64,000 bases of DNA from assembly GCF_030704535.1 (NCBI RefSeq), contig NC_081818.1:24467001-24531000 (forward strand). Direction: 5' to 3'. Shown piece after piece: positions 10,825-60,300 of this stretch. Position 1 is the first letter of the stretch. Each line of letters starts with the position of its first letter. The position numbers and the translations under genes are program-made. Source of the stretch: Vitis vinifera. Taxonomy: Eukaryota > Streptophyta > Magnoliopsida > Vitales > Vitaceae. The notes beneath the pieces were generated by a model. It saw nothing but the letters and a program-made list of their open reading frames with translations, searched no databases and was not told the origin of the DNA.

Positions 10825-12640
10825 TTCATCAGTTCCGATCACCGATTTCCGATTTCCGATCGTTGATTCCTGATACTCCCTCTCCCTCTGCTGCTGGCTT
10901 TTCACATTTCACATCCCTCTTTCCTCGTATACGTTGACGAACTCAATTCCTCCTCAATCCTGTCCGGACCATAATACCCCTCCCCACCCTCTTTTGTTCC
11001 ATTTTCAACCATCTCCTTCCTCTCTCACAAATTTGGGACCAAACACCTCGAGCTGCTCAACGCCCCGCAGCAACCAGTCCCATATTTGTAAATATTGATT
11101 CATTTTATATCTTAAATTATAAATATCAATAATACTTTTACCAATTTACTTGTAATTATCCTATATTAAGAAATTAAATAATTAATTTTTTTTATATATT
11201 TATAAAATTATGAAAGATATTTATTATTTTTTATAATTAAAAATTAAATTAAATTCTAAAATAGGTATAAATTTTTAAAATTTTTAATAAAGAAATATAG
11301 AAAGGAAAAAAAGTAATAAAGTTTTGCTCTTACTTAATTTAATTGTTTATAAAAACATTTTAACATCAGTGCAATTTTCCCCCTTACATTTTATTTTATA
11401 ATATTTAAATATTAAAAAAAATATCTTTTAATAATTTTCTTTTCTTTCCTCAACATATTAAAACATTCACCATCTTTTCTTAGGTTAACTTCGACAACGA
11501 TTCTAGATAATATTTTTAACATTTTTAACATTTAAAAAAATTTAATTTTTCAAATATTAGAAAAATTATAAAAACTTCATAAAATCTCTATCAAATGCAT
11601 TTTTAATAACAACCTATAAAATTTGATATTAAAAGTTTTAAAATCTTAGGTTATGTTTGGTTCTTAAAAAATATTAAGAAAAAAAAAATTGTTAAGAAAA
11701 ATGGTTTTCTCATGTTTAGTTTCATAATAAAAAATATAACATCAAATCAAATATAATAAAAATTAATTTAAAATTTATATATTTTAAAATTATTTAATTT
11801 GTTATAACATAAAGAAATAAGTTAAATGAGTTTAAAGAATCATATAAAAATAATTTATTAAATTTAAACTTTTTTTTCTTACTTTTTCTTTCCTGCAAAT
11901 TTTCCCATTATATCTCCTATTTGCTTATGCCTAGGTTTGGGCCCAAGGCCCAACTACACCCAAATGATTAACGTGGCTTCGTTGGGCGTGTTATCCCATT
12001 TGAATAAAATAATTTATAATTGATTGAATGAATCATTTTAATTTTTTATAAATAAAATAAATGTGAATAAGTCCACAAAATTGTCACTTGGACACACACT
12101 TGTTCAATATCAACCTCATGATTCCTCTAATTTATACATTACATATAACATTATTTTCGTATGATGTTACTATCATTTTGAGGATAATCCACATGATTCT
12201 ATGATATGTTAGACGGTAGATTTTAACTAGATGCATTCACAAATCACTTTATGGATTATAAGTATTTCTTAATGATTTAAAGAACTAACAATCATTGTTT
12301 GTTTTACAAATCTTCATGTTACAACAATATTGTCGCAAGTAATTACATATCTTATTTTACATTGAGCTTTATGAGGGTATAAAAGATAACATACATTTAC
12401 GATTTTGAATTTTCTAAATAAAATAAATTTATATTAGTTGTTCCACAAGAATAGTACAGAACATATTTGATATTATTCTAATATTTTCTAGTAACAAAAA
12501 AATTATACCTTACTAATAAATTGATTGCAAAAACAATTGAACCAATTACGCTAAGGTATATGGTATTTTAGGACCAAGTAAATCTTGGTCATCTTCACGG
12601 AGAAAATGGGTCTTCACCTCAAGTGAAGGAAAGACTATTA
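10825..12640. other. Promoter side of the DUF716 gene, then AT-rich intergenic DNA
   Basis: The first 100-200 bases (to about 10980) are pyrimidine-rich on the + strand and probably hold the leader and core promoter of the minus-strand gene. From 11090 to 11900 the sequence is extremely AT-rich. At 11643 the words gttatgtttggttc open a stretch resembling the MITE-like block at 47885-48100. No gene seen. Confidence 0.5.
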
Positions 12641-32542: not shown

Positions 32543-35500
32543 CTAGTACTTAATAAGGGCTGGCAGGGAAGCATGCAGTTCAGCCAAGCATTGGAAAACC
32601 CAATTGAGGAACTGCTCTCTCGGTAGCTCCAGAAGTAGTTCCGCCTGTGAGACAAGGAAATGGCATGAGGACTAATAAATGAACTTCAAATAATGCTTCA
32701 ACCTTGAATTCAACATGAAGTGAATGGAAATGGCACAAGGACTGATAAATATTACTGCCACCCACCAAAATGGAAAAAGCAGAAAGAAATATACAGTTGA
32801 TACCTTAATCTGGTTCTCCTCAAAAACAAGAGAATTTCTGATGATGTCAGAAGCCATAGAATCTGTTATCAGCTTGAAAACCTTTTTATTCATTTTTGTT
32901 CTCATGATAACCGTCTTTCCTGAAGCATATATCCTGGTAATCCCAAGATCTGCTGCCATTCTCTTCACATAAAGCTTTTTCAATAGAACCTCCATTGAGT
33001 AAGGCTCTTTCCCATATTGACGGCGCAGATTCTCTGTGAATTGCATCAAACTCCAAATGTCCTCTTCAGCAGATTTCTCAGCTTCACTAATTATTTCCAT
33101 GGGGTTCTCCAGATAATTTATATACTCAGAAGGGAGATGAGGGTTTATATTTATGTCAAACTGGCATAGGAAAAATGGGAAAAAGAAAGTAGAAATTAAA
33201 AGACAGCCAACACACACCATAAACCATTGAAAGCCAATATGGCAATCAAAAAGAAAAGCAAATGTTTATACAGTGTAGTCTTAAATATATGGTAGACAGA
33301 TTTATCCAATAAAAGAAAGGAAAAGAAAAGAAAAGAAAATGAAAAAAAGATGCACGCAGGTTTATTATTACCATAAATACAATAATGGTTTGCAGGGAAA
33401 ATATATAGGTGTCTGGATCAACCATTATACCACATAGGAAACTAAGGTAGCATTTGTTTGTTTGTTTGAATTTTTTTTTTTTTTTGTCTTAAATCTAAAT
33501 AGACATTAGTTCAACTTAAGTCTAGATAATACTTAAAAACTATTAAGTATTAAGTTGCTTATAACCTTTTTTTTTTACATAAGTCATAAAGCAAGTTGCT
33601 TTAAAACTTTCAAGTTATTTTTAAAATTGTTTGTTTTCAATTTATCACTTTTTCTAAGATAATTTTGTCTTAATGGAAAAAGTATTTTTTTTTTAATAAA
33701 TTTGATCTCAAATCTTAAAGCAAGTTGTTTTAAGACTTCAGTTAAAAAAAAAAAAAAAGCAAACCACCCCTAAGTCTAAAAGATCCAGTTTAGATTTATG
33801 CATTCACGTAATGGGCTCATTATGATTATTACTTTGAACATTAAATTTCTTTGGAGCATAATGAAGCAATGAATTGGATGGTTGCAATCAGCTAATCAGA
33901 CTAATATTTGATCTAAGCATTTCCCGGGTCCCATTATGTTCAACCCTCTGATTCCACCAAATTTTGCATTTCAATCTCATGCTAAAAGTTTTGGCATTAC
34001 GTTGGGATTTTAAGACATCACCTCTTTCTCACAAACATTCAAAAACTTTTTCTGCAACATTAAAATTCAAGAACTCTATAGATGCAATTATCAGAACCAC
34101 ATAGATATACATAAATAAATACCTGCACTGATTGGTAAGGAACTGAAATAAGACGGTGCTCTTCAACCTGGAAAATCAAACAAGAGAAAAACGAAGGGAT
34201 GGTAAGTGCAACCAGTTACAGTAGAAAAGTAGAAAGCCAATTCCACCAATAAAAATAAAGTACAATAAAATAAACTGAACTGGCCATCCATTTTCTTCCT
34301 GATTGGGCAACAAAAATTATGAAGAGTTGTCATATTGCATATTTATGCCCTCTTTTAAACGAACAAACCATAAACAAAAAATAAAAGCAAAGCTGAAAGC
34401 ATTGAAGATGACAGCAAAAGCCTAAATATGATTATCACAACACATCAACCCCCAATCCCTCCCACCCGCTTAAACTTAGAGTTCAATCTCTTAGGAGGGT
34501 CACAAACCAAACATACCTTTGACAAGCTCTCAAAAAGCATTTCAAAGAAGAGATCAATGCCTACATTTCCAACATCCCCTGTCTGTTGCTCACCAAAGAT
34601 GTTACCAAAGCCTCTTATACCCATGTCTCTCTCTGCAAGTTGAAAACCTTGACCAAGGTCACGACATTCTTCAAGAGCTGACAGTCTCTCCTGAAGTGCA
34701 ACCAAAATTGTGAGTTTTTTCCTTAATTCAAAGAAACAATTAAAATTTCTATTAGATTAGGTACAAATAAGTTCATGTAAAAACAAAAGCAATCATTAAA
34801 AGCTAGGGAGAATTCTCAAGAAGTGGTAAAGCACAAAGATGCGTACAAACCACATTCAGTACATTTGATAACCTACTAGGCATTTAGATACCAGTAGAGA
34901 AGTAGATATTCATGAAATAGAACATACCAGTGCTTGATCAGACAGCAGTGACTTATCAGGGTAAAACAAGTATGCATGAGCTTCCTTATCTGCACGCCCC
35001 ACTCTTCCACGCAACTATTAGATATCAAGAGAGAAAAAAAGAAAACATTTAGGTCTTGTTTCATGAATAGCAATCATAACATAAACTAAATAAGTGAGCA
35101 TAAATCATAACATAAACATTTACAATACTATATACGATACATGCATCCACCCTTCTATGACAAGAAACCTCCAAATCAGACAGGTGGAAATGATCAACCA
35201 GGCAGTTGGTTGCATTGGAGGCCAAAGTGTTCTGTCATGATCTGTGGGTCAGTAAGCCCAAAGGATACACATACTACAGAACTACTTAAACCAGATAGTC
35301 AAAGTACTGGAACAGTAAGCAGTCTGGACTCGAGTTTCCTAAAGGCCTGGTTTTTACTTTATAGAGAAACACAATGGATCCTGAAATACTGTAAAAGAAA
35401 ATACATTTTGAGATTCCACAAACAGATTATACAAGGGATATGCATTAGATGTTGCATTAGATAAACTTTCAAAATTGTTTTTGTAAGAAACAGAAGATTG

Positions 35501-41500: not shown

Positions 41501-44500
41501 AGAATACACATGCTCGTGCAAACACACACACACACACACACAGAGGAATTGCGACTCACAACTCACTAACTACGCCAACGCAAAATCCAACCCAGACACA
41601 CAGACAGACAGGGGAATTGGCCCTTTCCATACACTAACTACTAGATGACAAGCAACAACAGTGACTCACACGCACAGAATTGCCCCTCTTTGTCAACTAA
41701 ATATTTCAGTGAGGCTAGAAAAAAATTCCAACAGAACTCTGAATGCCTTAAGGAATTGTATCAATTTGCAGATTTAGAGAAGGTGGATTTGGATTCAGCC
41801 CCCAAATCCAAAATATTCTTTGGAAAGTTTACTCAGACATGGATTTAAAGTCATAAAAAATTCCCAGATAAATGTTAAGCCCCAATTCCATGGATTTGAA
41901 TAATTGGTTAATGAGAAGAGGACATGTTGCAAATAAAAGTAAAGAGAATTATGAGTCAAACCTGTTCCTCATCGACCACAAGAAGGCCTAGATTACTATA
42001 AACAACACGATTTCCAAGAAGCGAGTGAGTTCCCACAATAATGTCTAGATCACCATGTTTAATCATGCGCAGATGCTTCTCTTTCTCTGCTGTGGTCTGC
42101 ATATTGTAACATGGTGGGTAGTCTCAGAAAAAAGAATTACATGATAATGAACTGCAATGGTGATATTATTTTCGATCATTGAACTTTCACAATGAAGCAA
42201 TCAATGATCCCTATATGAAACTTCCTATGAGCTTCTTAATGTTAATTGTTTACTTTGCAAGATATAGCCCCTCTATGCAAAACATAAAACAATAGAAGTT
42301 TGAATTTGCAAAAACTCAAGAAAAATTATTAAGCATTTGAGGCACAAATTAAACAGTGAAGACAAGTGTAGAATGGCAAACCCATTTTCAGGACTTCACA
42401 AATCATTGACCTTTTTTGGGGAGTTATTTGGCATTCACCTAGGTCTCCTCACCTATAGGGTTTTCCTTTTTATTTTATTTTCTTACTAAAAACAATTTTT
42501 TTAAAAAAATGAAATGAGACTGGAAATTAAATAAAAATTAATTTTTTTTTCCAAAAATGAAAAATGCCACATGACAAGGTCTATGACAAGCAATGGTTCA
42601 TGCATACCATCATGCCATAGGGTATGATCATTTATACAACGAGAAACCATACATCAGAATTCATTTGAAAACTAGGAAGCAAATAGAGAATGCCAGAATT
42701 GAGGAAGAAAAAAAAATTGTAAACAGCTTTCTTCAGTTACAGTTGTTAACCCTGCATGTCCAAGAACCAGTGAAGAAAAATTCACCCAATCAAAACAAAA
42801 ACAAGTGAGTTGGAAACAAAAGTCAAAACAGCAGACTAACAAGGTATGTTCATTCACTATAATGCCATTTATGAATCAAAAGATCATCTAACAAGCACCA
42901 TACATTGAATCACATTGGAAGTGTGGATAGAATATTTTAAAAATAATCAGGGAAGAAAGAAAGGTATGCCAGCATATGTGGGAAGATACCCATTTCAACA
43001 GAGAATGCAACTGAAGAAAGTTCCCTTCAAATGCTAGTGGTGCCTAAGGGTAACTGATGCTTGACTGAAAGTTGACAAATAAAGACAGCAATTAGCTCTT
43101 TTATGTATTTTTTCGAAAATAGAACATGACGAAAGGGGGGTGTATCAGGCTTCAACTATCAGCAGTTCACTCAATGTTTAAATAAGTTCTAAAGCACTTC
43201 CATGTAAACTTGATCACCAGATAGAGACTGATCCTGACTCACAACCATTTGATTAGTCCAAGAGAATTGGTCAATCCAACACCAAATTTTCTAATACCTG
43301 AAATCTGCTCAGAAGCCCGACCTTGATGTTAGGATACTTAGAGAACCGCTCTGTAATAACATCAAAATGTTGTTTGGCTAAAACAATTGTAGGTGCCAGA
43401 ACCATAGCTTGCTTCCCTGCTGAGACAACACAAAATATTGCCCGTAGTGCAACTTCAGTTTTGCCAAACCCAACATCCCCACAAATTAATCTGTCCATTG
43501 GAGTTTCTCTCTCTGTCAAGTCCTCCTCAACATCAATGAAAGCCTGTAATAGGGCCCAAATGGTAAGAAGCGGAAAGGAAATCCGAAAATCCATCTATAT
43601 CTGAAATAGTTCAATATCTTATTTGGCTATAACTGATTACAAGGACATTCCTAAACCTATCACAATTAGAGAAGAATTTATGTAAGCACAGTAAAACCAA
43701 TGTAAAGAAAAAGTGGTAAGCATCCAAAAGAATTTTGAGGGGGAAAGGTTACTAAACCTGTTTTTGATCCGGTGTCGGCTCATAAGAAAACTGAGCTTCA
43801 AACTCAGCCATGCCAGGACTCTTTGGATAGGGAGGCCTTTTTTGTTTCAGCCGATGTAAATACAGCTCCATCAAATCAACAACCATCTTCTGAATGGCAA
43901 CCCGACCTTTTATCCTTCTCCTTTCCCATATACTAGTATCACTTAACTTGCTCAATGTGCGGGGCCTTTTTGATTCACTGGGGCTGAAAAAACAACAAAG
44001 TATCACGAAACAATTCCATCTCTGGCACATCAAATACGACCTCAGCATGAGTCTATGATATCAATTCTAGAAGTAATTGGCAATTACATAGGTTTCGACA
44101 GAAAAGACCTTCCCCTGTTAGCTGTAGTAGTGAAAGTCCCCAAACCCATATGAAGCAGACAAGCATCAAAACAATAAACAATGCAAAGAGTAGTACTTTA
44201 TATCGGCAAGCACCTTGACAAATATCTCATGTATTAAAGGACAAGCAAACATTCTCATATGACTTGGAGAACTTACAGATTATATCGATAAAGCATACGA
44301 GAAGCTTGCTTCACCGGAAGCTTTGCCATTCCATCTGCATACTCTATAAACACATACTCAATTGGGTTGGAAGAATCCTTGGGAACGTCCAACTTAATCC
44401 CGACAAATCGCCCGATACCCACCTTCTTATGCACAACATAATCTCCAGAACGAAGCGTATAAGGATCAACCTTATAACTGAATTGCCCATTCTCCTTCCC

Positions 44501-44878
44501 CACCCTCTCACCCTTCAGCTTCTGCAAACCCCTCCGCTGCTGCTCCTTCACCAGCTGAATATACTTATCCGCCTCCTCCGAATCCACCACCGGAGCCCTC
44601 GAAACATCCCTCTTACTCTGCTCGCGACGAATCCTCTCGTTCAGAATCGTTATGTCGTCGCTTTCCGGCTCCATCCTCTCCCGTCGTTGCACCGACCGGG
44701 TGATTGAAACGCCTTCGGTATAAACAGCGGTGGTGAGTAAATGGGTGCGTTTGATTCTGGCATGGCAAGGACACGCGAAGAAGAATCTCCAAACCCTAGG
44801 AGACGACCCCAGAAATGAGGAGGAGACATCGTGTTCAGAGACGGAAATGGGGGAGAGATGAGCTCTAGCGACGGCCAT
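32543..44878 (-). CDS. Plant TRCF/Mfd-type ATP-dependent DNA helicase, organelle-targeted
   Basis: Thirteen exons (minus): 44277-44878, 43758-43983, 43298-43543, 41962-42096, 40876-41000, 40123-40262, 39818-39888, 37866-38027, 34928-35014, 34517-34690, 34123-34167, 32804-33160, 32543-32644. Total 2472 nt, 823 aa; all GT..AG and in frame. N-terminus ([10 protein letters not shown]...) is Ser/Arg-rich like a transit peptide. Then a CarD-type RNA-polymerase interaction domain (about 143-198), helicase motifs GDVGFGKT (298), DEEQ (400), SATPIPRT (426), [10 protein letters not shown] (539), LRGRVGR (570), and a TRCF C-terminal domain (about 675-800). The bacterial UvrB-like N-terminus is absent, as known for plant homologues. 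Expected role: ATP-driven handling of stalled RNA polymerase or DNA repair, probably in plastids. A methionine at 44968 could extend the start; I prefer 44878. Intron 8 holds a LINE relic. Confidence 0.93.
33440..33785. repeat. T-rich MITE-like block in helicase intron 11
   Basis: Edges aggtagcatttgtttgtttg and gcaaaccacccctaagtc are loosely inverted. The interior contains T-tracts and repeated ttaag / aagcaagttg words. Possibly a degenerate non-autonomous DNA element. Confidence 0.3.
36080..37520 (-). mobile_element. Degenerate LINE in helicase intron 8
   Basis: Minus-strand fragments match the same LINE 3' half as elsewhere in this window: at about 37065-36868 [19 protein letters not shown] then DVWTC and LNDWEV; near 37370-37300 the complement of a DFLWRGGAL-like stretch. 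Stops and shifts are frequent. The 3' side near 36140-36180 keeps cacaggaagtatacaa, as in the LINE tail at 6390. It lies between exons 8 (37866) and 9 (35014), sense to the gene, and does not touch coding sequence. Confidence 0.75.
41520..41545. repeat. CA microsatellite in helicase intron 4
   Basis: Run of about ten CA dinucleotides (acacacacacac...), flanked by CA-rich sequence to about 41660 with cagacagacag. A likely length-polymorphic site. Confidence 0.8.
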
Positions 44879-45819
44879 TACAATACAACAGTAGAGAAGG
44901 ACCCAACCATGGGGAATTGAGGTGGGTGGGGGTTTTGGCAGGGTTTTAGCAAATCCCGAAAAAATCAAATACAGATATTTGTGGAAAGAGCCAGTGAGCC
45001 AATGGTGATAAAATTTTCTTGACTCTTATTTCCTACTTTCTTGTCTGTTTGTCTCCCGCCAAAACGCACCGTTTTTGGGTTTGCGCACCTACCCTTTTAA
45101 GTTAACCAATTGTTAAATTGCCATCCAATTTTCCTAATGTTCGGAATTTCTTATTCAACCAGTCATAATTATTGGTTATTTAAGTAAGAAATGCAGTGTG
45201 TATTTTTTCAAAAATTGGTAAATATATATAACAATTCTGAAATTATTCACGATGTTCAAAATCTTCTTAATAATTCCCGAATCATAATGTTGTTGTATAA
45301 GATTACATTCTTTAAAACCTCCTTTAGGATACCCTCTTATTTCTTGATTCAGATAAAAGTCGAGATTTAAGTTAAAATCATGTAAGTTTTAAAGCAAAAT
45401 ATTCATATTATAAAAGTTTACCCTCTTATTTCTTGATTCAGATAAAAACCGATATTCAAGTTAAAATCATATAAGTTTTAAAGCGTAATATTCATATTAT
45501 AAAAGTGTTATTAAAAGTGAAAGAGCTTCTTGTATAAATCGAAGTGAAGTTTATACAAGAAGTAATATTTTTCCAAGGTATTTCTTAAGTCATAAACCGG
45601 AACAAACATTAAAAATCTTAATAAGTTTCAAAAAAGGAAAAAAAAAAAAAAAAAGCTTGAACCCAAAAATATTATGTACCTCTACATTGAAATTGAACAA
45701 TATGTTTAGTATCAAAACAGGCACAAGTACATTTTCTTTTGAATCCAAAAATGGGAAATACAAGAATGGGGGAAACTAGCTCAATCACTGAAGTAGCTTC
45801 ATACACGTATCTGAGTGGA
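44879..45819. other. Helicase promoter side and spacer to the lipid-transfer-like gene
   Basis: Bases 44879-45060 are probably leader and core promoter of the helicase gene. The rest is AT-rich and contains an 89-bp tandem duplication (listed separately). The right part includes the 3' end of the lipid-transfer-like gene. No gene seen. Confidence 0.5.
45331..45508. repeat. Tandem duplication of an 89-bp unit
   Basis: Two head-to-tail copies beginning accctcttatttcttgattc (45331 and 45420), both ending with attcatattataaaagt. They differ at only a handful of positions, so this duplication is recent compared with the large one at the left end. Non-coding, upstream of the helicase start. Confidence 0.85.
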
Positions 45820-46411
45820 TCAAGTTAAAATATTCTTTGATCCCCACAGGATATGAATGCTCATGGAGAAGGCTGCAACCACTTTCATGATCAGGGATGG
45901 AGACCAAAAGATGCTACCAGAATTTGGAACCGAGTCCTTGGAGTTGGGTGGACCTGAAAAACAGTCACACAAACATGTTTTGGGAGATCAGGACATTGGA
46001 ATAATGAACTGGTCAGACACTGAGATCTGATGATTTAGAAGGCTGCATGTGAAAAAAAAATCATTAAAATGAATAGGAAATGAGATGCATACTTGAAAGA
46101 CAGGAGAGAGGGTTAACATGTTGTCCACATCTTCCAGGCAATTGCTGGGCCTCGGTCACATTGATGCCGGCCTGCCTAGCCTGGCTGGTGCCTTTGGTGC
46201 TGATCATACTACACAAGCATTCTGGTTTCGACTTGATCACCGACTTCAGAGGGTCGCAACAACTATCAGGAGGGTCTCGGGTGCCATTAAGGTAGTTCAG
46301 GCAAGGTGCGAGCTCGTTCAGGCAAGATGAATCCTGAGCCCATCCCTCCGGCACCAAAGTGACCAAGACTATAACAGCAATCCCACAGCATGCCCAAAAC
46401 TTCAACTCCAT
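45820..46411 (-). CDS. Non-specific lipid-transfer-like protein with GPI-type tail
   Basis: Two exons (minus): 46093-46411 and 45820-45953; donor A|GTATGC, acceptor cag|GT; 150 aa. Residues 1-25 (MELKFWACC...GWAQ) form a signal peptide. The eight-cysteine LTP/2S-albumin framework follows in order: C, C, CC (DSCCDP), CxC (ECLCSM), C (GRCGQ), C (PLSCLS). Exon 2 adds a Ser/Pro linker (SPPNSKDSVPNSGS) and a hydrophobic stretch (PSLIMKVVAAFSMSIHILW), the layout of GPI-anchored LTP-like (LTPG/YLS3-like) proteins. The hydrophobic tail is interrupted by charged residues and ends in KNILT, so GPI attachment is likely but not certain. Expected location: outer face of the plasma membrane or wall, binding lipids. 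Confidence 0.88.
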
Positions 46412-47289
46412 CTTTTTTTTTTTTTTTTTGCTTAAAACACCAACACATATATACCAGATAGAGGGTTAGGAGTTGGTTGTCCAACCTGTGGCTCACTAGT
46501 TGACTCTCCTTGGTGATTGCTTTGTGACAACTCTGGGGGAGGGCTTGCAGTAGATAGATGGCCTTTATGGCCGTTGAATGGGTTGAGCTACTTTGTTTTG
46601 AGAACATGCCTACCAGTCGGCAATATATATATATTTTAAATATTATATACATAGATATTACCCAATTACCCATCATAGAAAAAAGTGTTCTTCAAATAAT
46701 AAAGCATAAGAAATGGATCCTTCACTGTCATTCTTTAGCCCCATTAATCTGATCTTGGAAAGTAGGTGCGAATATTATCCCATTTTTCTGAGAGTTTTAC
46801 CCCATTCTTATCTATTTCAGTAAGGCAAAAGCTTTGCCTTCAAACATGTATAGACTATTTGCAGGAGCATACATCAAGGAGTTTGTCATCTATGAATTAG
46901 ATAGGCATATAATGAATTTAAGACAGGCCACAGAATCTGATTCAATTGCTATTGTAGCAAGCAATCAATGGAGACTGAAACCAAAGCCACGGCACGTTAT
47001 GATTACATATTTACACAAATGTCATCCTTCCATCTGTACATTCACATTCCAATGGAGAGTTCCAACTCAAGTCGGTTTCCACACCAGAACCCATATTTGT
47101 TCAACCTCTAACTCAGCAACACACAAACTTAGACTTGCAACTGCAGCATTATGTACAAAACAACACTCACATATTCATACTAGAAAGTTTGGGGGAGGGG
47201 GGAGCTGGGATCAGAATCCGCCTAAACAACCTAGAAAATTCAGCAGCAAGAATGCTCCTCAGTGTCAAAACATTTCTGCTTCTGATCAA
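46412..47289. other. Spacer between the lipid-transfer-like and unknown-protein genes
   Basis: The left part is the promoter side of the lipid-transfer-like gene (a T-tract at 46411-46429 directly upstream). From about 46830 the sequence is probably 3' untranslated DNA of the next minus-strand gene. An open frame on the + strand (46834-47457) runs antisense into that gene and has no family features. Confidence 0.45.
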
Positions 47290-48667
47290 CTATGCACGGG
47301 CAGAAATGCATTGAGACTTGGAACCCCTACAAGCAAAACCCTCAATTCGTACCATTGGTTTCTCTGCAGTTGCTGTCTCATGAGCTGGAACTCCGACTTC
47401 TCTTGCCAGGGGATATTTCCCTCCATGGGTATTTCCAGATGGAGAATCAAGGATTAGGGTCTGACGATTGAACTGTACATCATGGACAAGTGGGTTGTTT
47501 GTGCGCACTGGAGGTGAACAGCTGAGTAAATCCATTTGGCAGCTACCAGTATCCAATTCATCTACCATGTCATCCTTTGTAGAACAAAAGGAACAAGGAC
47601 AAAGGAAAACAACATGAACATTAGAAAAAAAAGATCATGAGAACTGCAAGATTTACGCCACTACCACTAAGAATGAGGGGATCAAGTACAAGACAGTACC
47701 GTGGCTAAAAACAGATTGAAGATGTCAAGACTGGGGTCACCCCTAAGGGAAGGCAAGTTCCTGCAAGAAAAAGATGCATGAAATAAGTAACACAAGTTAA
47801 TACCTAAATGGATGTTTCTGTTTATCAAAATAACAAAGGCAGCACCAAGACCGTAAAACATTTACCCTATATCTTGTTCTTTCTCGTGTTTGGTTCACTA
47901 TACAAAATATGGAAAATAAAATAAAATATAATTAAAATTTTATATATTTTCAAATTATTTAATCTTTATATAAAAAGGAAAAAATAAGTTAAATAAGTTT
48001 CAATAAGCATGTAAAAATAGTTTATTAACTTCAATTTTTCTCTCTATTTTCTTTTCCCACATTTTCCCTCTAATTTTCAAAGAACCAAACATAAGGTTAT
48101 TGAGGGTTGACAGAATACTTCACTGCCACCTCCTTCCATTCTCATCCCTCCATGCACAACCAACTAAACACAAATCCCCCAATCACTTCCTGTTTCAGAC
48201 CCTACAGCACATCAGCCACCGTCACCACCAGCAGATTTATAACAAAAACTATACACCACCACCTCCAGTAATTATTTGGCGTCCATTAACCCAAAATATC
48301 ATAAACAGTGATTATGAATTCGAGCCAGAAAACAAACTGCAGTTCCTTATGAAAAAAATGAGAAGGTATAAGAAAATAATAATCATAGTTCCTCACAGAA
48401 GCAATTGCTTAAAAAGAGAAAAAAACAGAACAAACATAGAGACAGCAAAATGAACCTTTTAGCCTTGCAGTTTGGTCTGTTGAGGTTATCCAACATAAAT
48501 GGAACCCTGGTAGAGCGATGGGGCTCTGGGCATAGGACTTCCCTTGGGGCAGATACTGGTGGTATATGGAAAGTTCCCTGCTCATTGCATTTCAATTCTG
48601 AAGCACAACCCAGAATATTATTAAAAGATATTTGGTCAAAGTTAAGGATTCTTGAGCAAGTTTCCAT
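47290..48667 (-). CDS. Uncharacterised plant protein, 185 aa, three coding exons
   Basis: Exons (minus): 48456-48667 (acceptor at 48679, so the ATG lies 12 bases into its exon), 47700-47760, 47290-47574. Junctions AAAAG|GTTCA..ttgcag|GAAC and CACG|GTAC..caaag|GAT keep one frame with no stop for 185 codons. The protein starts METCSRILNFDQIS, contains PPVSAPREVLCPEPHR and RVPFMLDNLNRPNCK, then LPSLRGDPSLDIFNLFL, and ends GSKSQCISARA. It has no signal peptide, membrane segment or motif that I recognise; several Cys are scattered without a finger pattern. The coding start just after a splice acceptor implies an upstream non-coding leader exon, probably in 50170-50410 where the minus strand is GA-rich. 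The function is unknown; the splice model is my reason for calling it a gene. Confidence 0.65.
47880..48100. mobile_element. MITE-like block in intron 1 of the unknown-protein gene
   Basis: Left edge cgtgtttggttcac and right edge gaaccaaacataagg are inverted; the interior is AT-rich with ttatttaat words. A similar left edge (gttatgtttggttc) and interior occur at 11643. It lies between the coding exons at 47760 and 48456. Confidence 0.55.
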
Positions 48668-49509
48668 CACAACCGATTCCTGCAAATAAAAGTGTGGTTA
48701 AGAGCAGATGATTTACAGCAATAAACTGCAGATATTTGATGACAAAAAGGCAAGTCACAAAAAGCTAATTAAAAAAAAATGTAAACTAGCACCAGTTCCT
48801 CATGAAATTATAGTATGATCAGCCAGAATGCAAGAGAGTATGAAGGACCAGATTTCCCATTTAATGGCTGAAGTCACCACAGGAAAATACAAGTTGCCAA
48901 CCCATGCAAAGTATGTGAAACAGTAAGGGAATAGGAAGGGGGGGGGACCCCTTTAATCAGATAAAAGAACTAATACAATCAAATGATTTTGATGCATTTG
49001 AACTACTATATAGGATTCATTAGGTGGCACCCTGATCCTTCCACATGCTGACCAGATAAAATTAGTGAAAGATTCTGAAACAACACAATCTCCAGTTGGG
49101 ATTCCAATCCTTTTTATGCTAATGTGATCGATTTATGGTTGAATCTTATGTAATGCCGAAATCATTTGACTTTTTTGCTATGGTGCATAGGACATGACTT
49201 TAATAGTTATTATCATACAATACTTAAAACTGTAGAGACAAAACAATCCAACCAAACTTATTGTTGATGCATTTGCTCTCCTAAGTGATCCATTAGGTGT
49301 GCGCTCCTGTTCTTAACACTAACAAAGCACCATATCAAATGAAGATCCATCAAAAGGTATGTCATAATAATCCTTTCATACTAAAATGATGCAATTTCTT
49401 GGTTATTGGACCATCTTTGTGGTGTTGACATGACGCAGTTAATTGAGTACTTCACCATTTTGCTACTGAGTCTGCTGACACAACATGCACTAATTTATCG
49501 GTGGTTGGA

Positions 49510-49511
<2 letters not shown>

Positions 49512-49542
<31 letters not shown>
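49512..49542. repeat. AT microsatellite
   Basis: An unbroken run of about fifteen AT dinucleotides, in the presumed leader intron of the unknown-protein gene. Confidence 0.9.
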
Positions 49543-49544
<2 letters not shown>

Positions 49545-50169
49545 GGGAAGAATTAGAGAGAAGTGGAACCCAGCCAGATTTGTGATGCCCAGAGATAAAA
49601 TGTGCCCAGATATGCTAATATATAAGATGCCATGCCTAACTCTTGAATTTTTCTACACAACTAGATGTGATCCAATCACCATGATACCTAAATTTGATTC
49701 CTATTGCAAAGAGAAGAAACACAAAGAGGTGGTTAGGAGAGGTGGCATTGGTCATAATAGATAAGTGCAGCAAGGTTGAGGCTCAAGTAACCAAAACAAG
49801 TCCAATGAGGGTAAAATGGGAATAGTCACAGAGCTCCACTTAAAAAGGCTAAACAGGCATGCACACAGAGACAACCACCATGGAACTCCCAAAATCTAGA
49901 CTCTTGAAGGCAAATAAACATGCTTGCCTTAAAGATTTCAGGAACCCCTTCACCAAGAGGATAGGATACCAACCCATTTCTGTACATTTACAAACAAAAG
50001 CACTTGAATTGAAAAGCAACATTGAATTTTAAGGACAGCAACCCTTCACATAATGCCATTGCTGCCTAACGAAGACCCATAAAGGGCAAAACCAACAAGT
50101 GAAAAGGTGAAAAACTGCAGCCCGTAAACACCAACATCAGTTTAAGCAAACCCAAATAAAAACCAGTGG

Positions 50170-50410
50170 AAATCAAGCAGAATCCTCAAAAATCAGAAAC
50201 AAACCACAAAACCAAAGCGAGAATCTTAATTCGGAAATGGAGATCCGGATCTCGTACAAGGAGAGAAACCCTATCGCCGCTTCAGTGAGAGGGGAAGAAG
50301 AGATGCCGTATGGAAAGAGAAGAGGCAGCAATCTGCAGTGGATTTGCAGCGCGGAGCAGGCGACTGCTCCCCCTTCTCTCCCTCTCCCTCTCTCTCTCTC
50401 TTCCGACGCA
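50170..50410 (-). promoter_or_regulatory. Probable 5' leader exon/promoter of the unknown-protein gene
   Basis: GC content rises sharply here, and the + strand carries ccctctccctctctctctct (50381-50402), that is GA repeats on the minus strand, as also seen before the potassium-transporter start. Read on the minus strand it resembles an untranslated leader. Open frames of 117 codons exist on both strands but neither looks like a protein. Assignment to the gene at 47290-48667 is an inference. Confidence 0.4.
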
Positions 50411-50709
50411 GCAATTCCGACCTTCGCCGGCGTTTCAACACTGCCCTCCACCCTTCTATTAGTCACTCTCTCTCTGACTACCATTATTAAACCTGTTTTC
50501 ACTGATTTACTTTTTACGTCACTCACTTTTACCTTTTTGCTTTCCTCTTTTACCCCTACTCTCTTAATATCTTCATTTTTAATTAATTGATTAGAAGGAC
50601 GAAATAATCCTTATATTATGAAATTAACCTCTTTTATATTTTTGTCTGGGAAATAATCCATTTTGACATAAATGCATTTAATTATTTTAAATATTTATAT
50701 TTATATTTT

Positions 50710-50711
<2 letters not shown>

Positions 50712-50782
<71 letters not shown>
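50712..50782. repeat. Long AT microsatellite
   Basis: About 35 uninterrupted AT dinucleotides in AT-rich intergenic DNA, able to form a cruciform or slip during copying. Confidence 0.92.
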
Positions 50783-50785
<3 letters not shown>

Positions 50786-52936
50786 AAAAAATATATTTTT
50801 ATCAAAATAAGACCAAAAATAAATGAATGGTTAGATTTTCAAAATTAGGTTTTTAATAACAATTTTAATTAAATAATCTTAAATTTAATATAAGTAATTT
50901 AAAATTAAAAAAAAAACAAAATATTTAAAACTTTGGGCTCAACTTTAAATTATAATTTTAAGTCCTATTCTCTCATTAAATTTAAATTAAAATATATTTA
51001 ATTTGAATTTATATTTGAAAAATGCTAAAAATGATTTTTATAATTTTAAAAAGGATGATGCTGTATGTATTATTACTTCTATTATTATTATCATGAATTT
51101 ATGTGTTGGAGGTGATGATTAATTGTGATCATAGAAATTTAATCCCCACTTATCATGTAATAGTGCAATAAAATTTTTTGTGGAAGTGAAAGTTGGAGCC
51201 CCCTTTTCAAAACTACATGTACATCATGTTAAAATCGAAAATTCAACCACTCATTATATGTCACGTGTATAATTTGATCTTATTACTATATATTTAACCC
51301 GTTTGGTCATAATTTTTGTATTTTAGTCACATTTATTTGTATTTACTTCCATTTATTTATGTTAAGTCTAAATTTTACCATTTTTTAATATTCAAAATTA
51401 GGAGTGATAATTCATATTGGTGGGTTGTATTTGTATCAAGTCAAAGTTTAAGTCTAAGTATTATATATATATGTAAACCTAAACCCGATAGGAATAATAA
51501 TCGTGTCAAAATACATAAACCTAAATACCACCAAATCAAGTTGAACGAGATATTGTACATATACGTATACATATATGATTAATGTCTCAACCAAACATAC
51601 TCATAACTCAGTTGATCTATTTATTTAAAAACAAATTTAAAATGAGTTCAATATGAGTTAAACGGTTTTAAGATATAATTAAATTAATAACAAAATTATT
51701 AAATGAGTCAATTTGGATCAAATTCATATTATCCAGATTGATTCAAAGATTACCTATTTATTAAACGGGTTATGTATATTGATATGAATTTGATCAAAAC
51801 TCATTTATGTTCAACTCAAACCTGCAAAAAAATGTAGGGAGGTTGTATGGTATGTACATATCATATGAAACTTTATCAACCCTAAGATTGAGATGTAGTT
51901 GATAGGGTATACCTCCATTTTCTTAACTTTATCCAAATATCCTTGAAGATAGTCTATAAGGGTCAAATATGGTATTTGGGGTTTAAAATCCATTTTCAAG
52001 CATTTTGTGTCTTAAACTGAGAAACTTAAATAAAATTTAGTGACAATGATCACAAAAATACAGCAGAGTGCGAAGCCAACCTACACATGGCTGTCCCAAG
52101 AACATTGATATGAGCAGATATTTATGGCGGCTAACTAACAGATGAACGCACACGTGTGAAGCAATAATTTGTTGGAGTAGTAGCAGTAGTTACGTCGGTA
52201 ATTTTTCGCGCGGAATTACATGGGCAGGTAAATGGGCTCTTCGTAACGAGGAAGCAAACAGATGGAATCAAAAGTCTCTTTGCTACTAAAGCATGAAAAG
52301 GTAAGATGACGAAGTGGGTCTCTTCCCAAAAAAGCTTGGCTTCTCTTCTTATATATGAACCTTGGTACATGAGAGATCGGATGATCTGGGTAGGTTTTGA
52401 ACATATGAAATCTGTAGAGGTCAGGGGTCTGGGTTTTTGAAAAGATGGTGTTTTTTCTCTTTTTGTGAGGGTGGGTAGCCAATTTTGAGGACTGAAACAA
52501 CCAAGCAAGTGAGCATATTTAAATAGTAAGTTCAAATACTTCATGAATGATTGAACTAATCATTGATTCACTGTTAGTACCATCCTGTTTTAAGTATTGT
52601 GCAATTGGGGCATACTTGTTGTATGAACTCTAGCAGATGATCTTGTTTCATGGTGGGGTTGAGATGGGGCTTAAGAACTACTTGTTTTGGGGCCGGGAAT
52701 GGTCCATACTTGCTTTCCGAGTTTGTTTTATTGTTTTGATTATATCACTGTATTAGTTTAGGATTTCGGATTCTGCGAAAAAGTGGGATGGTACTGAGAG
52801 TTGTGTAGAGATTTCAACTGGGTTCTTGGTGGTGTTTAGCATAGAAAAAGAATTCTAGGGAACTGCTTGTCTGCAGAGCACTGTTGCATTTACCCTCTCT
52901 TTGGTGCAGGTAGCTTTTCAGTTTTCAGGAGATACC
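50783..52936. other. Intergenic DNA and promoter side of the RBR-like gene
   Basis: Very AT-rich to about 52000, then more balanced. I looked for the missing N-terminal RBR domain on the + strand here and found no exon resembling it. The segment 52590-52920 is T/G-rich and may be the leader of the RBR-like transcript, with possible acceptor sites (gtgcag at 52905-52910, tttcag at 52923-52928) just before the ATG. Confidence 0.45.
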
Positions 52937-55900
52937 ATGAATATCTGTGGCTACAAGGTATCTTCTTCTGCTTATGATATGACAAACTTTTCTTCTGCTA
53001 AAACTTCAGTTAATTAATATAAGTTTTCTTAATTGTCCATGCTCCTTTTCCCTTGCTTTCTGCAGAGAAAATTTGAGGCTATAGTCTCCCCAGCAGACAC
53101 TACAAGCCAGCTTTCTCCATGCACTCCTGCACAGTGGCTCCAAACTGTCATTTGTTCACTTCCTGCAAAACCATCTGCAGAATTGGAGAGGTTCATGTCA
53201 TCATGTGATGGGAATGTAACTGATAAGGTGATATGCAGGGCCAGCATAATATTGGCGGCCATATTTCCCAGGGGTTGTAATGGAAACCGATGTATGAGTT
53301 CTGGTTTGCATAATAGCAGCTTGATGAATAGTGGGTGGATAGAGCAGAGACAAGAGGAAGCTCTGAAATTATACTATAAGGTTTTGGAATCCATTTGTGA
53401 ATCTGAAGCTCAAAAGCTGCAGGGAAGGAACTTGACCCAGCTGTTAACTAATGAGAGGTTCCACAGATGCATGCTAGCATGTTCAGCTGAACTGGTTTCA
53501 GCAGCTCATATGGGAGTTAGGATGCTGTTTCCTAGAGTATTGGAGAGAATTGGTATAACTGCATTTGATCTGAGCAGAGTGACTGAAAGTTTCATTAAAC
53601 ATGAAGGGTCACTTCCAAGAGAATTGAAGAGGTACCTGAATTCTATGGAAGAGCAAATGTTGGAGAGCATGGTATGGGGAAAAGGTTCCTCCTTATACAA
53701 TTCTCTGATTGTTGCAAGACCATCCCTTGCTGAAGAAATACGTCGGCTCGGCCTACTCGCAAAGCCTATGCCATCACTGGATGCAATTGCTGCAGATAAT
53801 CTTCTTTCATATGGAGGCTTGCCTCACCCACCTGGTAATTCATTTGTATTTCAGCTAAACTATATGGACTAATCATCATTTTATTGCTCAGAACCTGTGT
53901 ATTTGACCTTAATTTTACTTCCAATCCATCACATATTTTTCAGGCCAGAATGGAAATGCTAGGTCTTCAGAGAAAGTATCCAGTGAACTACACAACTCCT
54001 CTGCATTACCAATGAAGGAACATTCACCTGCTCTTAATGATCAAAAGCCAAGGAAGCCACCACCATCACCCCCTCTGCTGTCTGCATTTGCCAGGTACCA
54101 CCACTACATGAAATGATTTTTTTAGAAGAGATTTTCTTTTATCTAACAAAGAACACCATATTTGCATACTTCAGTCCAACACAGCCAAATCCAGGAGGCA
54201 GGGGCTCTACTTGCTTGGACACAGGGATTAAGCTGCTCTTTGAGAAGGTATAGTAATGCATCGCCCTACCTCACTACCAAATTATGTTATCAGTTTATGA
54301 CGTTGTGATATCAGAAGCTTCAATACGAATATATTAGTTCAAAAATACAAAGACCAAACCATACACCTACTACAAAAGTACACGAAGTTTTAACATGGTT
54401 CAACTGACTATGTTTACTTCCACGGACAAGAGAGCATTTGACTATATCATAAAGAAGGGTCTCGGAACATCCCATGCTTCCAACATTTTGTATCTACACC
54501 CTAAACATCGAGTCCTCTTACTCCATCAGGTGTCTACCACTCTTCCTCAAATCTCCATCCATCCAATGTAGTTTTCACAAAACCATCTTCGTCTCATGAC
54601 CTTTTTCCCTCATAAATATTTATAGAGATATTGCTAATACATTTCCTTATTTTATAAGGAATCAAATCACCATAATTATAAAATATTTTATATAATATTT
54701 TAATAAAAAAATATGTATATCAATTAGGAATTTAAGACGCTCTCTAACATCCGATTTTGTTGCTTCACTTTGGTCATGGGATATCATTTCTATTTTTTCT
54801 TTCCATGGATCATGCACATTCATGAAGTATTGTTTTGCTTGCAGGTGGCAAAGTTAGCAGCAGTACGAATCAATCATCTGACTCTGAGGCTAAAACCGTT
54901 GCAGCCGATCAGAGAGATTGTCTATGGCTTATTTCATCGGATCCTAAATCAAAAAACTGCCCTTTGTTTCAACCGGCATGTTGACCAGATCATCCTCTGC
55001 TGTTTCTACATCATTGTAAAGGTCTGTAAATAGACTCATGATCTAATCTTTGTTCATTCTCTTCCCCACTGACTTCATGGGTGGCTTACAGGACTCTAAA
55101 CTAGAACTGACCTTTAAGGAGATCAAAGACAGCTATGTGAAGCAACCACAACATGGACCTCAAGTGGTCAGCCATGTGTTTGTTAACAGGTCACCAGCAC
55201 ATGGGAATGGGGTATGTTCATTGATTATAGTCACACTCTTGTAGCTTCCAATTTTCCAGGAAAATCTGATGCTGTTTGTGATTTGGGACCCAGAAAAACA
55301 GGGAGGATCACATTGATATTGTCGCATTTTACAATGAAATCTTCCTCTGGGCTGTAAAGCCTTTACTGGTTGAGGTTAGACCTGCCAAAGTGTCTGACCA
55401 AGCTCCTGATGAGGCTGCAAATAATGCTGATGGTGTGCTTGCTCTTGATCTTACTATTTCTTTGCATATTAAGGTTTGCTGGATAATTGTTTTTAAAAAC
55501 AGTTCCAAAAAACGGTTTTTAAGAACAAGTTTTATAATTTATATAGGATAAATGTAATTTTGAAACATTTTTAACCTATTTTCTATATTTTTAAATATAT
55601 TTAAAAAATAGTTTTTATATTTAACACTTTATTTTTAATCATTCTTTATATTTTTATAATTATTTTTTTAAATAATCCTAAAAAAAATATAAAAATATTT
55701 TTTAAAACACTTTGTTTTTTATTTTTAAAAACAAAAAATTATTTTTATCATCAAATATGTTTTTTTTTTTTTTGAAAAATAAAAGTTTATTTTTAAAATA
55801 GTTGTAGAATATGACCTAATTTATTTATTGTCCTTATTATGAAAATTTTTCCTTTGTTGTCTAGATGAGTGTCCCGGTTCACCTCGGATTTCTCCGTTTC

Positions 55901-56791
55901 CAAGCATTCCTGATTTATCTCCGAAGAAAGTCTCTCCCTCGCACAATGTCTACCTATCCTCACTGCAACCATCAAAGGTAAGAAGTTCTTTTACCCTGTA
56001 TCCTTAAGTGCCGTTTGGTAATTTTTTTTAGAATATTTTTTTTCTTTAAAATAAAAAAATTCATAAAAACATATTTGACAATAATTTTTTAAAAAAAAAA
56101 AACAGTTTTTAAAGAAAACATGATGTTTTAAAAAAACATATTTTAGTTTTTCGTTGTTTTCTAAAAATTATTTTAAAAAATAATTATATAAATATAAAAA
56201 ATAAAGTATTATATATAAAAATTATTTTTAAAAACATAAAAAACATTTTAATTCATCAAACTAATTTTTGTTTTATAAAACATTAAAAAACAGTTTTTGA
56301 AAATACTTCCTAAACCAAGACCTTATAATTTGGGGGTACAATTACAGAAGGAAGCATTGATCTCAAGGGGTGCTAAAAGCTATTATGCCTGTTTTGGGGA
56401 GAGCACTCGTGCTTACCAGAGCCCCTCCAAAGATCTCACTACAATTAACAACTGTTTGCGCAGGTACGCCACTTTCATACCTACCATATCACAAAAAAAA
56501 AAAAAAAAAAAAAAACCCTATTTTCAAACAAATTCTTAAAAAAATATTTTGTGGAAAATAATTCCCCAAAAAGCTCTTAAATGCTAAAAAAATCCCATGG
56601 GATTGAGGCTACTCCATATTTGCCATATGGAGTGACAACAAAAATTGAAATTGCTTTATTTTCTATGTGGCATTCCAATTTCCGACCAATGATATATTTG
56701 CAGCAGGCCAAAACTGAGACGCCGTCTGGATGTAGAGTTTGTTAGTCACTCTGAAGTGGCCAGGGCCCTCTTCCATCATCAATCAGCATGA
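52937..56791 (+). CDS. Retinoblastoma-related (RBR) paralogue lacking the N-terminal domain
   Basis: Ten exons (+): 52937-52957, 53066-53834, 53944-54094, 54175-54247, 54845-55021, 55092-55211, 55294-55432, 55865-55977, 56348-56463, 56707-56791. Total 1764 nt, 587 aa, GT..AG throughout, no internal stop. Pocket A (about 30-240) includes [25 protein letters not shown] and [20 protein letters not shown]; a proline-rich spacer follows; pocket B (about 315-455) includes [17 protein letters not shown] and [13 protein letters not shown]. The C-terminal part keeps SP sites ([17 protein letters not shown]) and [14 protein letters not shown]. Canonical plant RBR is about 1000 aa; the whole N-terminal cyclin-like domain is missing. 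Residues lining the LxCxE cleft are kept (Y393, K397, Y450, N451). RBR proteins repress E2F targets and control cell-cycle entry; this one could act as a short pocket protein or be an expressed relic. Confidence 0.88.
54300..54770. other. Large intron 4 of the RBR-like gene with possible insertion
   Basis: The intron (54248-54844) is about 600 bases, several times longer than its early neighbours. The middle has more balanced composition (taacatggttcaactgacta, aaagaagggtctcggaacat) than normal intron DNA here, suggesting an inserted repeat that I cannot name. Confidence 0.3.
55476..55800. mobile_element. MITE-like AT-rich block in RBR-like intron 7
   Basis: Runs of gtttttaaaaacag and aacggtttttaag at the left, and ttttgaaaaataaaag at the right, with an AT-rich interior (ttaaatatatttaaaaaatag). 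Resembles the block at 15190-15590. No clean terminal repeats or target duplication visible. Confidence 0.4.
56008..56330. mobile_element. MITE-like AT-rich block in RBR-like intron 8
   Basis: Left edge agtgccgtttggtaa and right edge cttcctaaaccaagacc are loosely inverted, with cagttttt... motifs inside both ends. It directly abuts the acceptor of exon 9 (56348), leaving little room for a normal polypyrimidine tract. Confidence 0.45.
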
Positions 56792-57397: not shown

Positions 57398-60300
57398 CTA
57401 CACGTAATATATCATGCCAACTTCAATAAGGCTGATGTGAGGAATGTTAAGCGCGACAGCTGGGCCCCTGCAGTTCTTCCTGAGAAACGAGTATCCCATA
57501 TCAATCACAAGCTTTTTCAAGAATGAGGAAGATCTCCTGGCCTTCACATATGAGTGACCCATTATATAAGCAACCCCCGCCTCCTTGGCTTGGATCAAGT
57601 CGATCAGCTCTTCCCTTACTGAAGCATCCATCCCAGGGTTTGGTGGCAACTGGAACCTCACTCGGCGCCTCCGAATCTGTGGGTTCTCATCATCATAAGC
57701 AGATAGCAAACCGGGGAGGCTTAAAGATTTGCTGCTTTGGAAGGAGTTGCTCACACCTAAGCCCTCTTGCTCAGTTGCCATTAAGGTTGAGCTGGACTGA
57801 ATCGTTCTAGTGCTTATAACTGCCATCCTCCCATCAATTGATGAACTCTCCGAGGTTGAAAACTGGGGTTCTTCTGCTTCCATTTGGATGAACTCAGCAA
57901 TGCTTTGGACAAGCAGGTTCTCAAAGTCTCCATCATCACGTTGGATGTCCTTGTACCCATACCTGACAATGCACCGGTACATACGGTATGGTCTTGGGCA
58001 AACTCGTCCAATGAGGAAGCGCTCCTCAGGTGAGACATAGGGGACTGGAACCGATTTTACACAAACAAAAACTAACACGTTATGAAATGCAGGGAGATTT
58101 GTTACAAAGTGAGAAAAGATTGCAGGAACACCCGTTGCCAATTCTGAGTATATAAGGCCTATTCCAGGCACACGAACGATGCCAAGGCTGGGACCTAGGC
58201 CAAGCAACCATTTTAGAGAGACTTTATTGTGCAGATCGAAGTTGTACTTCTTACAAGTCCCATAATGCCAGACATACATAATACCCATGAAGATGCATGA
58301 GAGCACAATAGGGACCCATCCACCCTGAGGAACCTTCATGAATGCCGCAGTTAGGTAGACACCCTCAATGAACCCGAAGAAGAGAAGGAACAGGGCAGCT
58401 ATTAGAACACTTTTCTGCCAAACAAAGACTATGACCAGTGTCATGAGACAAGTGGTGATGAACATAACTGTCACACAAGCAAGACCTGGGAGCCAATAGC
58501 CAAAAATGAGCAATCAAAAATCTCAGACAAAGTAATATGAGAATAATCAATCAGTAAGAAGCTGTTCTTGCTGCCTCTGTTGTAATAATGCCATTTTACA
58601 GTTGATTGACAGCATAATGGACGTCACATGAAATAAAACTGAATATATGCCTACAAACTATGCTTCTGGTCCAAATCAAAGGAGTATAGAGCAAATGTGA
58701 GTAAGAGACGGACCAGCAATTTAAAAATCTTTATTGTGGGTGTGCACCAACATATCATATGCATGTAACTAGCTCAGACATTAGCAAGCAGAGAAACAAC
58801 CCAAAATCACCATGATAATATTGTGGTTCAATGGAGATTTTCCAAAGTTTTATTGTCTTGAATACAATTTCCAAAATCTATATTTTAGAACTTTATGAAG
58901 ATAAAATTTAGCCAATGGGTGCACCTGCAGAACTCGTCCAATCCATGCTACCAACTGAATGGGAGATGGGATCAGAGGAGCAATAGCATCCAAATCTTCA
59001 TGTTCAAGGGTTGTCATTGGGTGTACCATGGCACCTAATGTACAATGCTCTTGTTACTGAACTTCGGGTAAAATAAAGGCATGCCAATAGTCTAAGATTC
59101 TGACACAGGTACCTTGGAGATTTTACTCAATAGACTCTGACTAGACACCATCATATGGGGGTTTTCTTTGGACAAAGGGATGGAACTGAATCCCCTTGTC
59201 AGGGTTACAGATATATGAGAAATTGTCTCTATATAAGATAGCTAAAGACATTAGTATCTACTTGTTTCTTGGCTTTCTAGCCACATGTAGGACAGAATTA
59301 TGCAACAGATGAAACAATAATCCTTTCTATTTACACATCCTGAAGCAACAAATACAGTCAAGAGAGAGAGAGAGAGAGAGAGAGAGAGCTACTTTACATT
59401 AGTGGCCAACTTACCATAAGCATTCCCTATTAAGGTCGTGTCTCGAAATCCAATAGTAATAGCAAGAGTAAGGATCATAAGGATCCAGTTTATCTCTGGG
59501 ATATAGATCTGCCCATAGATATGTCTTGAGGTGTGGACAACTTTGACTCGTGGAAAGCAACCAAGTGCATGGCATTGTTTAATTATGGAGAAGGTAGCAG
59601 TGATAACGGCCTGACTGCCAACAATAGCTGCAAGTGTGGCAATAATGAAGACAGGCCAAAAAACAGTGTCTGCAAGACAAGCAAGAATCAAAGTAAGTTT
59701 GAATTTGAGACCAGAATGGAGGGAGTGATATTTATCAGAACAAGAATGAACTAACCAGGTATTGAGTCATAGAAGCTGGAACTAATGGAGGGGATGTTCT
59801 TAGACAGGAAAGCAGCCTGACCCATATACTGTACTACCAAACAGGGGTATATAACAAATGCAAATGCAAGCTGCAAGAACAAGAACAACACTCAGATTCC
59901 TCACACAGTACAAACATGCAAACAGCAAACTTGTAAGGCCAGATATACCATATGATACATTATGCTAAACAAAGCCTACAAACCACAATGGCTTGAGGTA
60001 GATAAGTGACAGCTGTGCCATTTCTTGAATTATGTAAAATTGTTTTCCAAGCCAACAGCTTTTTCCTCCTTACCATCCAAATAGTAGCTTGGATAATAAT
60101 GATTATCAAGCTGGCTTGACTTTTAGTAAGGAGACCTACCAGGTGGCAAAAGAAATTGTAGGTCTGTCACCCATGTGTCAATATCCCAAACAAACCATTT
60201 TTATAATCATATATCCAGAATATCTTTTTTTCTGCCTAAAATAATGATCAGGTTGAAAATTTACCCTTATCGAAAAGGCAGTGAAATGACCAAGATCAGC

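Follow-up and report, generated by a model that had tools for sequence, protein, structure and literature searches.

A pocket-only RBR gene in grapevine

Can a plant retinoblastoma-related (RBR) protein persist as the product of a separate gene once its N-terminal domain is gone? This question is raised by a 64,000-nucleotide stretch of the Vitis vinifera genome (NCBI RefSeq assembly GCF_030704535.1, contig NC_081818.1, positions 24,467,001 to 24,531,000 of the forward strand), hereafter referred to as the window, whose own numbering is used throughout and which carries a pocket-only RBR copy at 52937-56791. We compared this copy with the full-length RBR gene found on contig C4 of the same genome and with known pocket proteins. 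The window copy is an old paralogue of the C4 gene, lacks the N-terminal domain and bears the mark of protein-level constraint. These results suggest, with a probability of about 0.6, that it encodes a functional second RBR-type pocket protein, which would bind E2F and would be controlled differently by cyclin-dependent kinases (CDKs).

Ten exons on the forward strand join into a single frame of 588 codons, including the TGA at 56789-56791, and thus encode 587 amino acids (aa); all nine introns are GT-AG (Table 1). The rebuilt model is exactly the one proposed in the initial annotation, which had also described the frame as free of stops and broken splice sites, and the 587 codons and 18 splice dinucleotides are indeed all intact. 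Both pocket halves, which the annotation had read from the sequence, are complete by Pfam (RB_A, PF01858, E = 5e-62, profile positions 6-196 of 196; RB_B, PF01857, E = 4.8e-36, positions 2-144 of 144), and among solved structures the pockets of human p107 and RB come closest. No further Pfam family was found in the protein up to E = 1, and the N-terminal domain DUF3452 (PF11934) is not in it. The C region, whose presence had likewise been claimed, is encoded by exons 7-10, the counterparts of RBR exons 15-18; it keeps the equivalents of S885, S898 and S942, has lost that of S911 and ends in a shorter tail.

The donor at 55432 gives an open frame and matches the homologous intron of the full-length gene in position and phase, and an alternative last acceptor at 56704 would add one residue. 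The frame also stays open beyond this donor over 55433-55473, and a second donor after 55473 would lengthen exon 7; exon 8 would then be shifted to another frame in which stops follow, so that this is a possible alternative splice. A run of 23 A at 56493-56515 lies in the last intron and is possibly the tail of an inserted element.

Table 1. Coordinates of the pocket-only RBR copy and its candidate promoter site in the window
Feature	Position	Strand	Description
E2F consensus-like site TTTCGCGC	52204..52211	+	Candidate; match to TTTSSCGC, 733 bases upstream of the ATG
Exon 1	52937..52957	+	MNICGYK; 3' end of full-length RBR exon 9; ATG corresponds to a Met within the full-length frame
Exon 2	53066..53834	+	Pocket A box (RB_A) and flanks; RBR exon 10
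Exon 3	53944..54094	+	Pocket spacer; RBR exon 11
Exon 4	54175..54247	+	Spacer and start of B box; RBR exon 12
Exon 5	54845..55021	+	Pocket B box; RBR exon 13
Exon 6	55092..55211	+	Pocket B box, LxCxE-cleft segment; first codon is the changed Asp; RBR exon 14
Exon 7	55294..55432	+	End of B box (FYNEIF) and start of C region; RBR exon 15
Exon 8	55865..55977	+	C region; RBR exon 16
Exon 9	56348..56463	+	C region; RBR exon 17
Exon 10	56707..56791	+	C-terminal tail, shortened, and stop; RBR exon 18

Origin from the full-length gene

Genome searches covered 21 contigs (495.6 Mb) and took RB_A and RB_B matches up to E = 0.001. Both profiles matched at two loci only, the window and a position near 2.31 Mb on C4, where we modelled a full-length RBR gene (C4:2308388-2315508, minus strand) with 18 GT-AG exons, a product of 1006 aa and a match to the N-terminal domain. 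The prediction that the window copy is a paralogue of an RBR of roughly 1000 aa was thereby borne out, and 351 of 581 aligned positions are identical between the two proteins. The search for the C4 exons was guided by a provisional Arabidopsis RBR1 sequence, and the model itself is based on C4's own open frame and splice sites. The provisional sequence fits the published landmarks, having 1013 residues, T406, S911, N849 and 16 SP/TP sites grouped 7, 5 and 4.

Exon 1 of the window copy is the counterpart of the final seven codons of C4 exon 9, and the remaining nine exons follow C4 exons 10-18 one by one. All nine introns stand at homologous positions in the same phases, the last being displaced by one alignment column next to a gap of one residue. 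These shared positions and phases indicate that the copy was made at the DNA level, and a processed retrocopy was rejected on the same ground. DNA similarity to C4 exon 9 starts at 52920, 17 bases 5' of the ATG, so that the start codon corresponds to an internal Met in the frame of the full-length gene; the peptides at this point read MSISGAK in C4 and MNICGYK in the window.

The N-terminal domain and the DNA upstream of the start codon

The initial annotation had seen no N-terminal domain upstream of the ATG, and our searches of the window and the whole genome agree with it. With residues 1-371 of the C4 protein as query, tblastn against both strands of the window gave a best score of 21.9 bits, compared with best scores of 20.8-26.6 bits in ten mononucleotide shuffles of the window. 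No counterpart of C4 exons 1-8 and most of exon 9, which code for the N-terminal domain, was thus found in the window. Across the genome, the PF11934 model scored above its cut-off only at C4, with four further listed places below it, and a hidden upstream N-terminal domain was therefore rejected.

A different possibility is that the view from the ATG is incomplete, and that the real transcript starts upstream and joins some other coding sequence to the pocket. Just 5' of the ATG the frame is indeed open (VAFQFSGDT...) through possible acceptors at 52908 and 52920. However, in addition to the missing RBR N-terminal domain, none of the six open reading frames (ORFs; 114-221 aa) that lie from 46792 to 52559 has a Pfam family over cut-off, and the nearest Pfam-supported upstream ORF among the 16 scanned is a lipid-transfer-protein ORF (LTP_2, 46067-46465) on the minus strand, so that we regard such a transcript as very unlikely. 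The 1041 bases at 51900-52940 matched only themselves in the genome, in a search that skips simple repeats and very common words.

The upstream DNA also holds a candidate E2F site. TTTSSCGC, which we take to be the E2F consensus, has two matches on both strands of the window (0.06 per 2 kb), one of them at 52204, and E2F-like sites are found about 1.5 kb upstream of the ATG of the C4 gene. The site at 52204 fits a putative control by E2F and proves nothing.

Selection and age

Over 581 aligned codons, the Nei-Gojobori method (NG86) gave a Ks of 1.21 and a Ka of 0.285 between the window copy and the C4 gene (ratio 0.235). Maximum likelihood (ML) gave a synonymous divergence (dS) of 1.14 and a dN/dS ratio (omega) of 0.255, with omega = 1 rejected (twice the log-likelihood difference, 2dlnL, 134). 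Region by region, ML omega stayed below 1 in all five fits (A, 0.21; post-A, 0.25; spacer, 0.23; B, 0.32; C, 0.23), and the 28-codon start, which stands outside these fits, had an NG86 ratio of 0.50. Without constraint, a frame of such length would be hit by about 64 stop-creating changes for each unit of divergence (d); its probability of showing no stop under neutrality is 0.04 at d = 0.05 and below 1e-16 at d = 0.6, and that of showing no stop together with all 36 splice-site bases unchanged is 0.007 at d = 0.05. In pocket columns where human RB and C4 agree, the window copy keeps 81 of 96 residues, compared with 112 of 208 in the other columns. Together, an omega below 1, the absence of stops and the retention of RB-shared residues point to protein-level constraint for most of the history of the copy. 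A plain pseudogene was rejected, given the intact frame and splice sites and a dN/dS well below 1. Evolution at a dN/dS near 1, which the initial annotation had named, together with missing transcripts, as an outcome that would speak against it, was not what we found over the whole history of the copy.

Both estimates of synonymous divergence fall inside the range published for the grape gamma event (dS 1.05-1.25, and 1.22 for Vitis; PMC6204039), which for a single gene pair is weak evidence for gamma. No collinear genes were seen among the best 60 clusters when 164 kb around the window gene were compared with 150 kb around the C4 gene; the stretches had in common only RBR itself, transposon matches and weak or multi-place matches, the latter three being set aside. 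One neighbour taken from each locus had no relative on the other chromosome among the matches listed. The copy may stem from gamma, or it may be a duplicate of about that age that was transposed.

Rapid divergence, phosphorylation sites and binding surfaces

Several observations weigh against a functional second pocket protein, and the first of them is the speed of change. In 575 columns of the three-way alignment, the window copy has 141 residues found in neither of the other two, C4 has 21 and the provisional Arabidopsis sequence 36, although part of the 141 would belong to the stem rather than to the window branch if the duplication predates the grape-Arabidopsis split. No asymmetry appeared with human RB as outgroup (15 pocket residues common to RB and C4 only, 18 to RB and the window copy only), an even split that we take to reflect chance matches at saturated sites and too little power over such a distance. 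With the 141:21 asymmetry taken into account, the window branch has an omega of 0.448 (omega = 1 rejected, 2dlnL 46.7), or of 0.395-0.468 when the full-length branch is assigned 0.30-0.10 of that value (2dlnL 62.8-41.6 against 1).

This fast change and a branch omega of about 0.40-0.47 would also suit a relaxed, dispensable duplicate on its way to being lost, one that was constrained for most of its life, is now expressed little or not at all and keeps its frame solely because decay is recent. A frame neutral for a d of 0.01-0.02 would still be stop-free with a probability of 0.53-0.28, and the data leave room for a loss of constraint within the last d of about 0.02 or less; the binding surfaces described below, kept no better than background, agree with such a history. 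Against it stand the splice dinucleotides and codons, every one of them intact after a dS of about 1.1, and the regional omega values (0.21-0.32). We therefore consider a duplicate in decay unlikely.

In human RB, the linker threonine docks the N-terminal domain. The equivalent of Arabidopsis T406, which corresponds to human T373 and is reported in human RB to regulate both E2F and LxCxE interactions (PMC11649800), is gone from the window protein by the alignment used. A TP (T27) nevertheless lies near the lost site and could be equated with T406 by another placing of the deletion, and in Arabidopsis a variant defective at T406 had by itself no effect on meristem size (PMC11649800). Of the 13 SP/TP sites common to C4 and the provisional Arabidopsis sequence, the window protein keeps six (375, 385, 712, 885, 898 and 942) and has lost seven (382, 389, 406, 423, 665, 685 and 911). 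It has five further SP/TP sites, one being the TP near the lost T406 site, which brings its total to 12 compared with 15 in the matching part of C4, and it has two full S/T-P-x-K/R sites compared with eight. These losses are about what divergence predicts (SP/TP sites kept, 7 of 15 with 5.3 expected; full sites kept, 2 of 8 with 1.7 expected). Selection for CDK-site loss or CDK resistance was therefore rejected: as losses equal to background divergence, they are a consequence that may matter for regulation and give no evidence of having been selected.

The binding surfaces were assessed with provisional lists of LxCxE-cleft and E2F-interface residues; PMC2859746 was of no help for the cleft residues. 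In the cleft, the equivalents of human Y709, K713, F721, Y756 and N757 are kept; that of V714, Ile in both C4 and the provisional Arabidopsis sequence, is Asp in the window copy, the equivalent of G710 has changed from Gly to Ile, and the residue beside the M761 equivalent from Pro to Trp. On the E2F side, the human letter is kept at the equivalents of E464, E533, K537, R544, E554, K653 and R661, and those of I532, F650 and K652 are Thr, Leu and Glu (Ile, Phe and Ser in C4). The window protein equals C4 at 9 of 16 positions of the LxCxE list and 17 of 26 of the E2F list, compared with the overall identity given above. Neither surface is thus kept better than the rest of the protein, and preferential retention of binding-surface residues was rejected. 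Given fast evolution and changed residues on both surfaces, we lean towards a function that would be altered rather than simply retained.

The three cleft substitutions would fit a dominant-negative pocket that still binds E2F while its LxCxE cleft is weakened, so that it would shield E2F from RBR, recruit no LxCxE partners and favour S-phase genes in the manner reported for grass RBR3. In maize, RBR3 is an E2F target that RBR1 represses, and it raises the expression of MCM2-7 (PMC4171995); the E2F-like site at 52204 would suit the same scheme. However, five cleft residues are kept, p107 likewise has Ile at the G710 position in the structure-search alignment, and some E2F-side residues have changed too. 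Hence, we think a dominant-negative role improbable.

Proposed mode of action

The human large pocket (residues 379-928), which is without the N-terminal domain, is the minimal stable fragment that binds E2F and suppresses growth (PMC5348811, PMC2082274). Since this fragment suffices for both activities, the simplest reading of the window copy is a second E2F-binding pocket protein. Under this preferred reading, exons 1-8 and the greater part of exon 9 would have been lost from an old DNA-level RBR duplicate, or left behind when it was copied, and translation from the internal Met would yield an A-B-C large pocket of 587 aa. This protein would bind E2F/DP through its A/B cleft and C region and so may occupy E2F beside full-length RBR. 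The initial annotation had proposed such a paralogue as a candidate competitor or specialised regulator of E2F. Cyclin-CDK would release it differently from RBR, because it is without the N-terminal domain, apparently without the threonine that docks it, and without most full CDK sites. The candidate E2F site in its own promoter suggests that it may be produced when E2F is active, as a feedback.

RBR is regulated by phosphorylation, and in Arabidopsis its phospho-defective variants, particularly those of the pocket and C region, act dominantly and are partly rescued by mutation of the LxCxE cleft (PMC11649800). It follows that a pocket that CDKs cannot release would be expected to act as a strong repressor if its cleft is intact. 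With its altered cleft, the window protein could instead shield E2F without repression, by analogy with maize RBR3, and our data do not choose between a strong repressor and an E2F shield. A more specific proposal would be that a dicot has long kept a free-standing large pocket, its docking threonine gone and its cleft altered, which is driven by E2F and competes with RBR as a CDK-insensitive or dominant-negative counterpart of RBR3; this is speculative and rather unlikely.

Neighbouring features

The RBR copy lies tail to tail with a KUP/HAK potassium transporter gene (57401-59766 and beyond, minus strand), whose closest relatives are on contigs C14, C2 and C1, with none on C4 among the 30 matches listed. 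Further upstream, ORFs with a TRCF domain (32675-33265) and a CarD/RID domain (44276-45025), both on the minus strand, probably mark the opposite ends of a single plant Mfd-like (TRCF) gene that spans some 12 kb. Remains of a long interspersed nuclear element (LINE)-type reverse transcriptase (RVT_1, zf-RVT) lie at 16322-17620 and 22465-23829 on the minus strand and match similar remains near C4:2382000, and an RVT_2 fragment at 27168-27704 on the plus strand is probably part of a broken copia-type element. The window also contains a DUF716 ORF of 334 codons (9907-10908, minus strand) and an ORF at 25352-25930 that had no Pfam match.

Comparison with known systems

Monocots seem to have various RBR paralogues and dicots only one according to a 2020 review (PMC7404004), and an older and more careful review states that there are more RBRs in grasses than in most dicots (PMC4171995). 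In the portions of the literature that our search covered, including PMC3224931, we found no description of a second RBR, or of a pocket-only one, in grape or any other dicot, and the gene may well be annotated. A grape bud transcriptome study names an "RBR1_1" that is up in endodormant buds (PMC8067045), a suffix that may point to two or more RBR1 entries in the grape annotation it used. If read strictly, the rule of one RBR per dicot would be broken by an old and constrained second RBR-type gene in a eudicot. Moreover, the function of the N-terminal domain was described as not yet characterised in the 2020 review (PMC7404004), and a pocket-only RBR would be a natural experiment on this domain. 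If expressed, the window copy would give the genome a pocket-only gene of its own, similar to the large-pocket constructs used in work on human RB.

The closest comparison is with the C4 RBR and Arabidopsis RBR1, with which the window copy shares the A and B pocket, the C region and the intron positions. Unlike them, it is without the N-terminal domain and the equivalents of T406 (by the alignment used), S685 and S911, has a shorter spacer and tail, and has changed much faster. In extent it equals the human RB large pocket (379-928), consisting of A, B and C without the N-terminal domain; however, the human large pocket is a laboratory fragment of one gene, whereas the truncation in the window is a separate chromosomal gene. 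The RBR3/RBR4-type genes of grasses resemble it in being a second, diverged RBR type beside RBR1, and RBR3 is an E2F target (PMC4171995, PMC7404004); these genes are known from grasses, and an independent origin is presumed. Similarly, Drosophila Rbf2 is a diverged second pocket protein that stands beside a canonical one (PMC4502384, PMC11631494), as the window copy stands beside the full-length RBR of grapevine.

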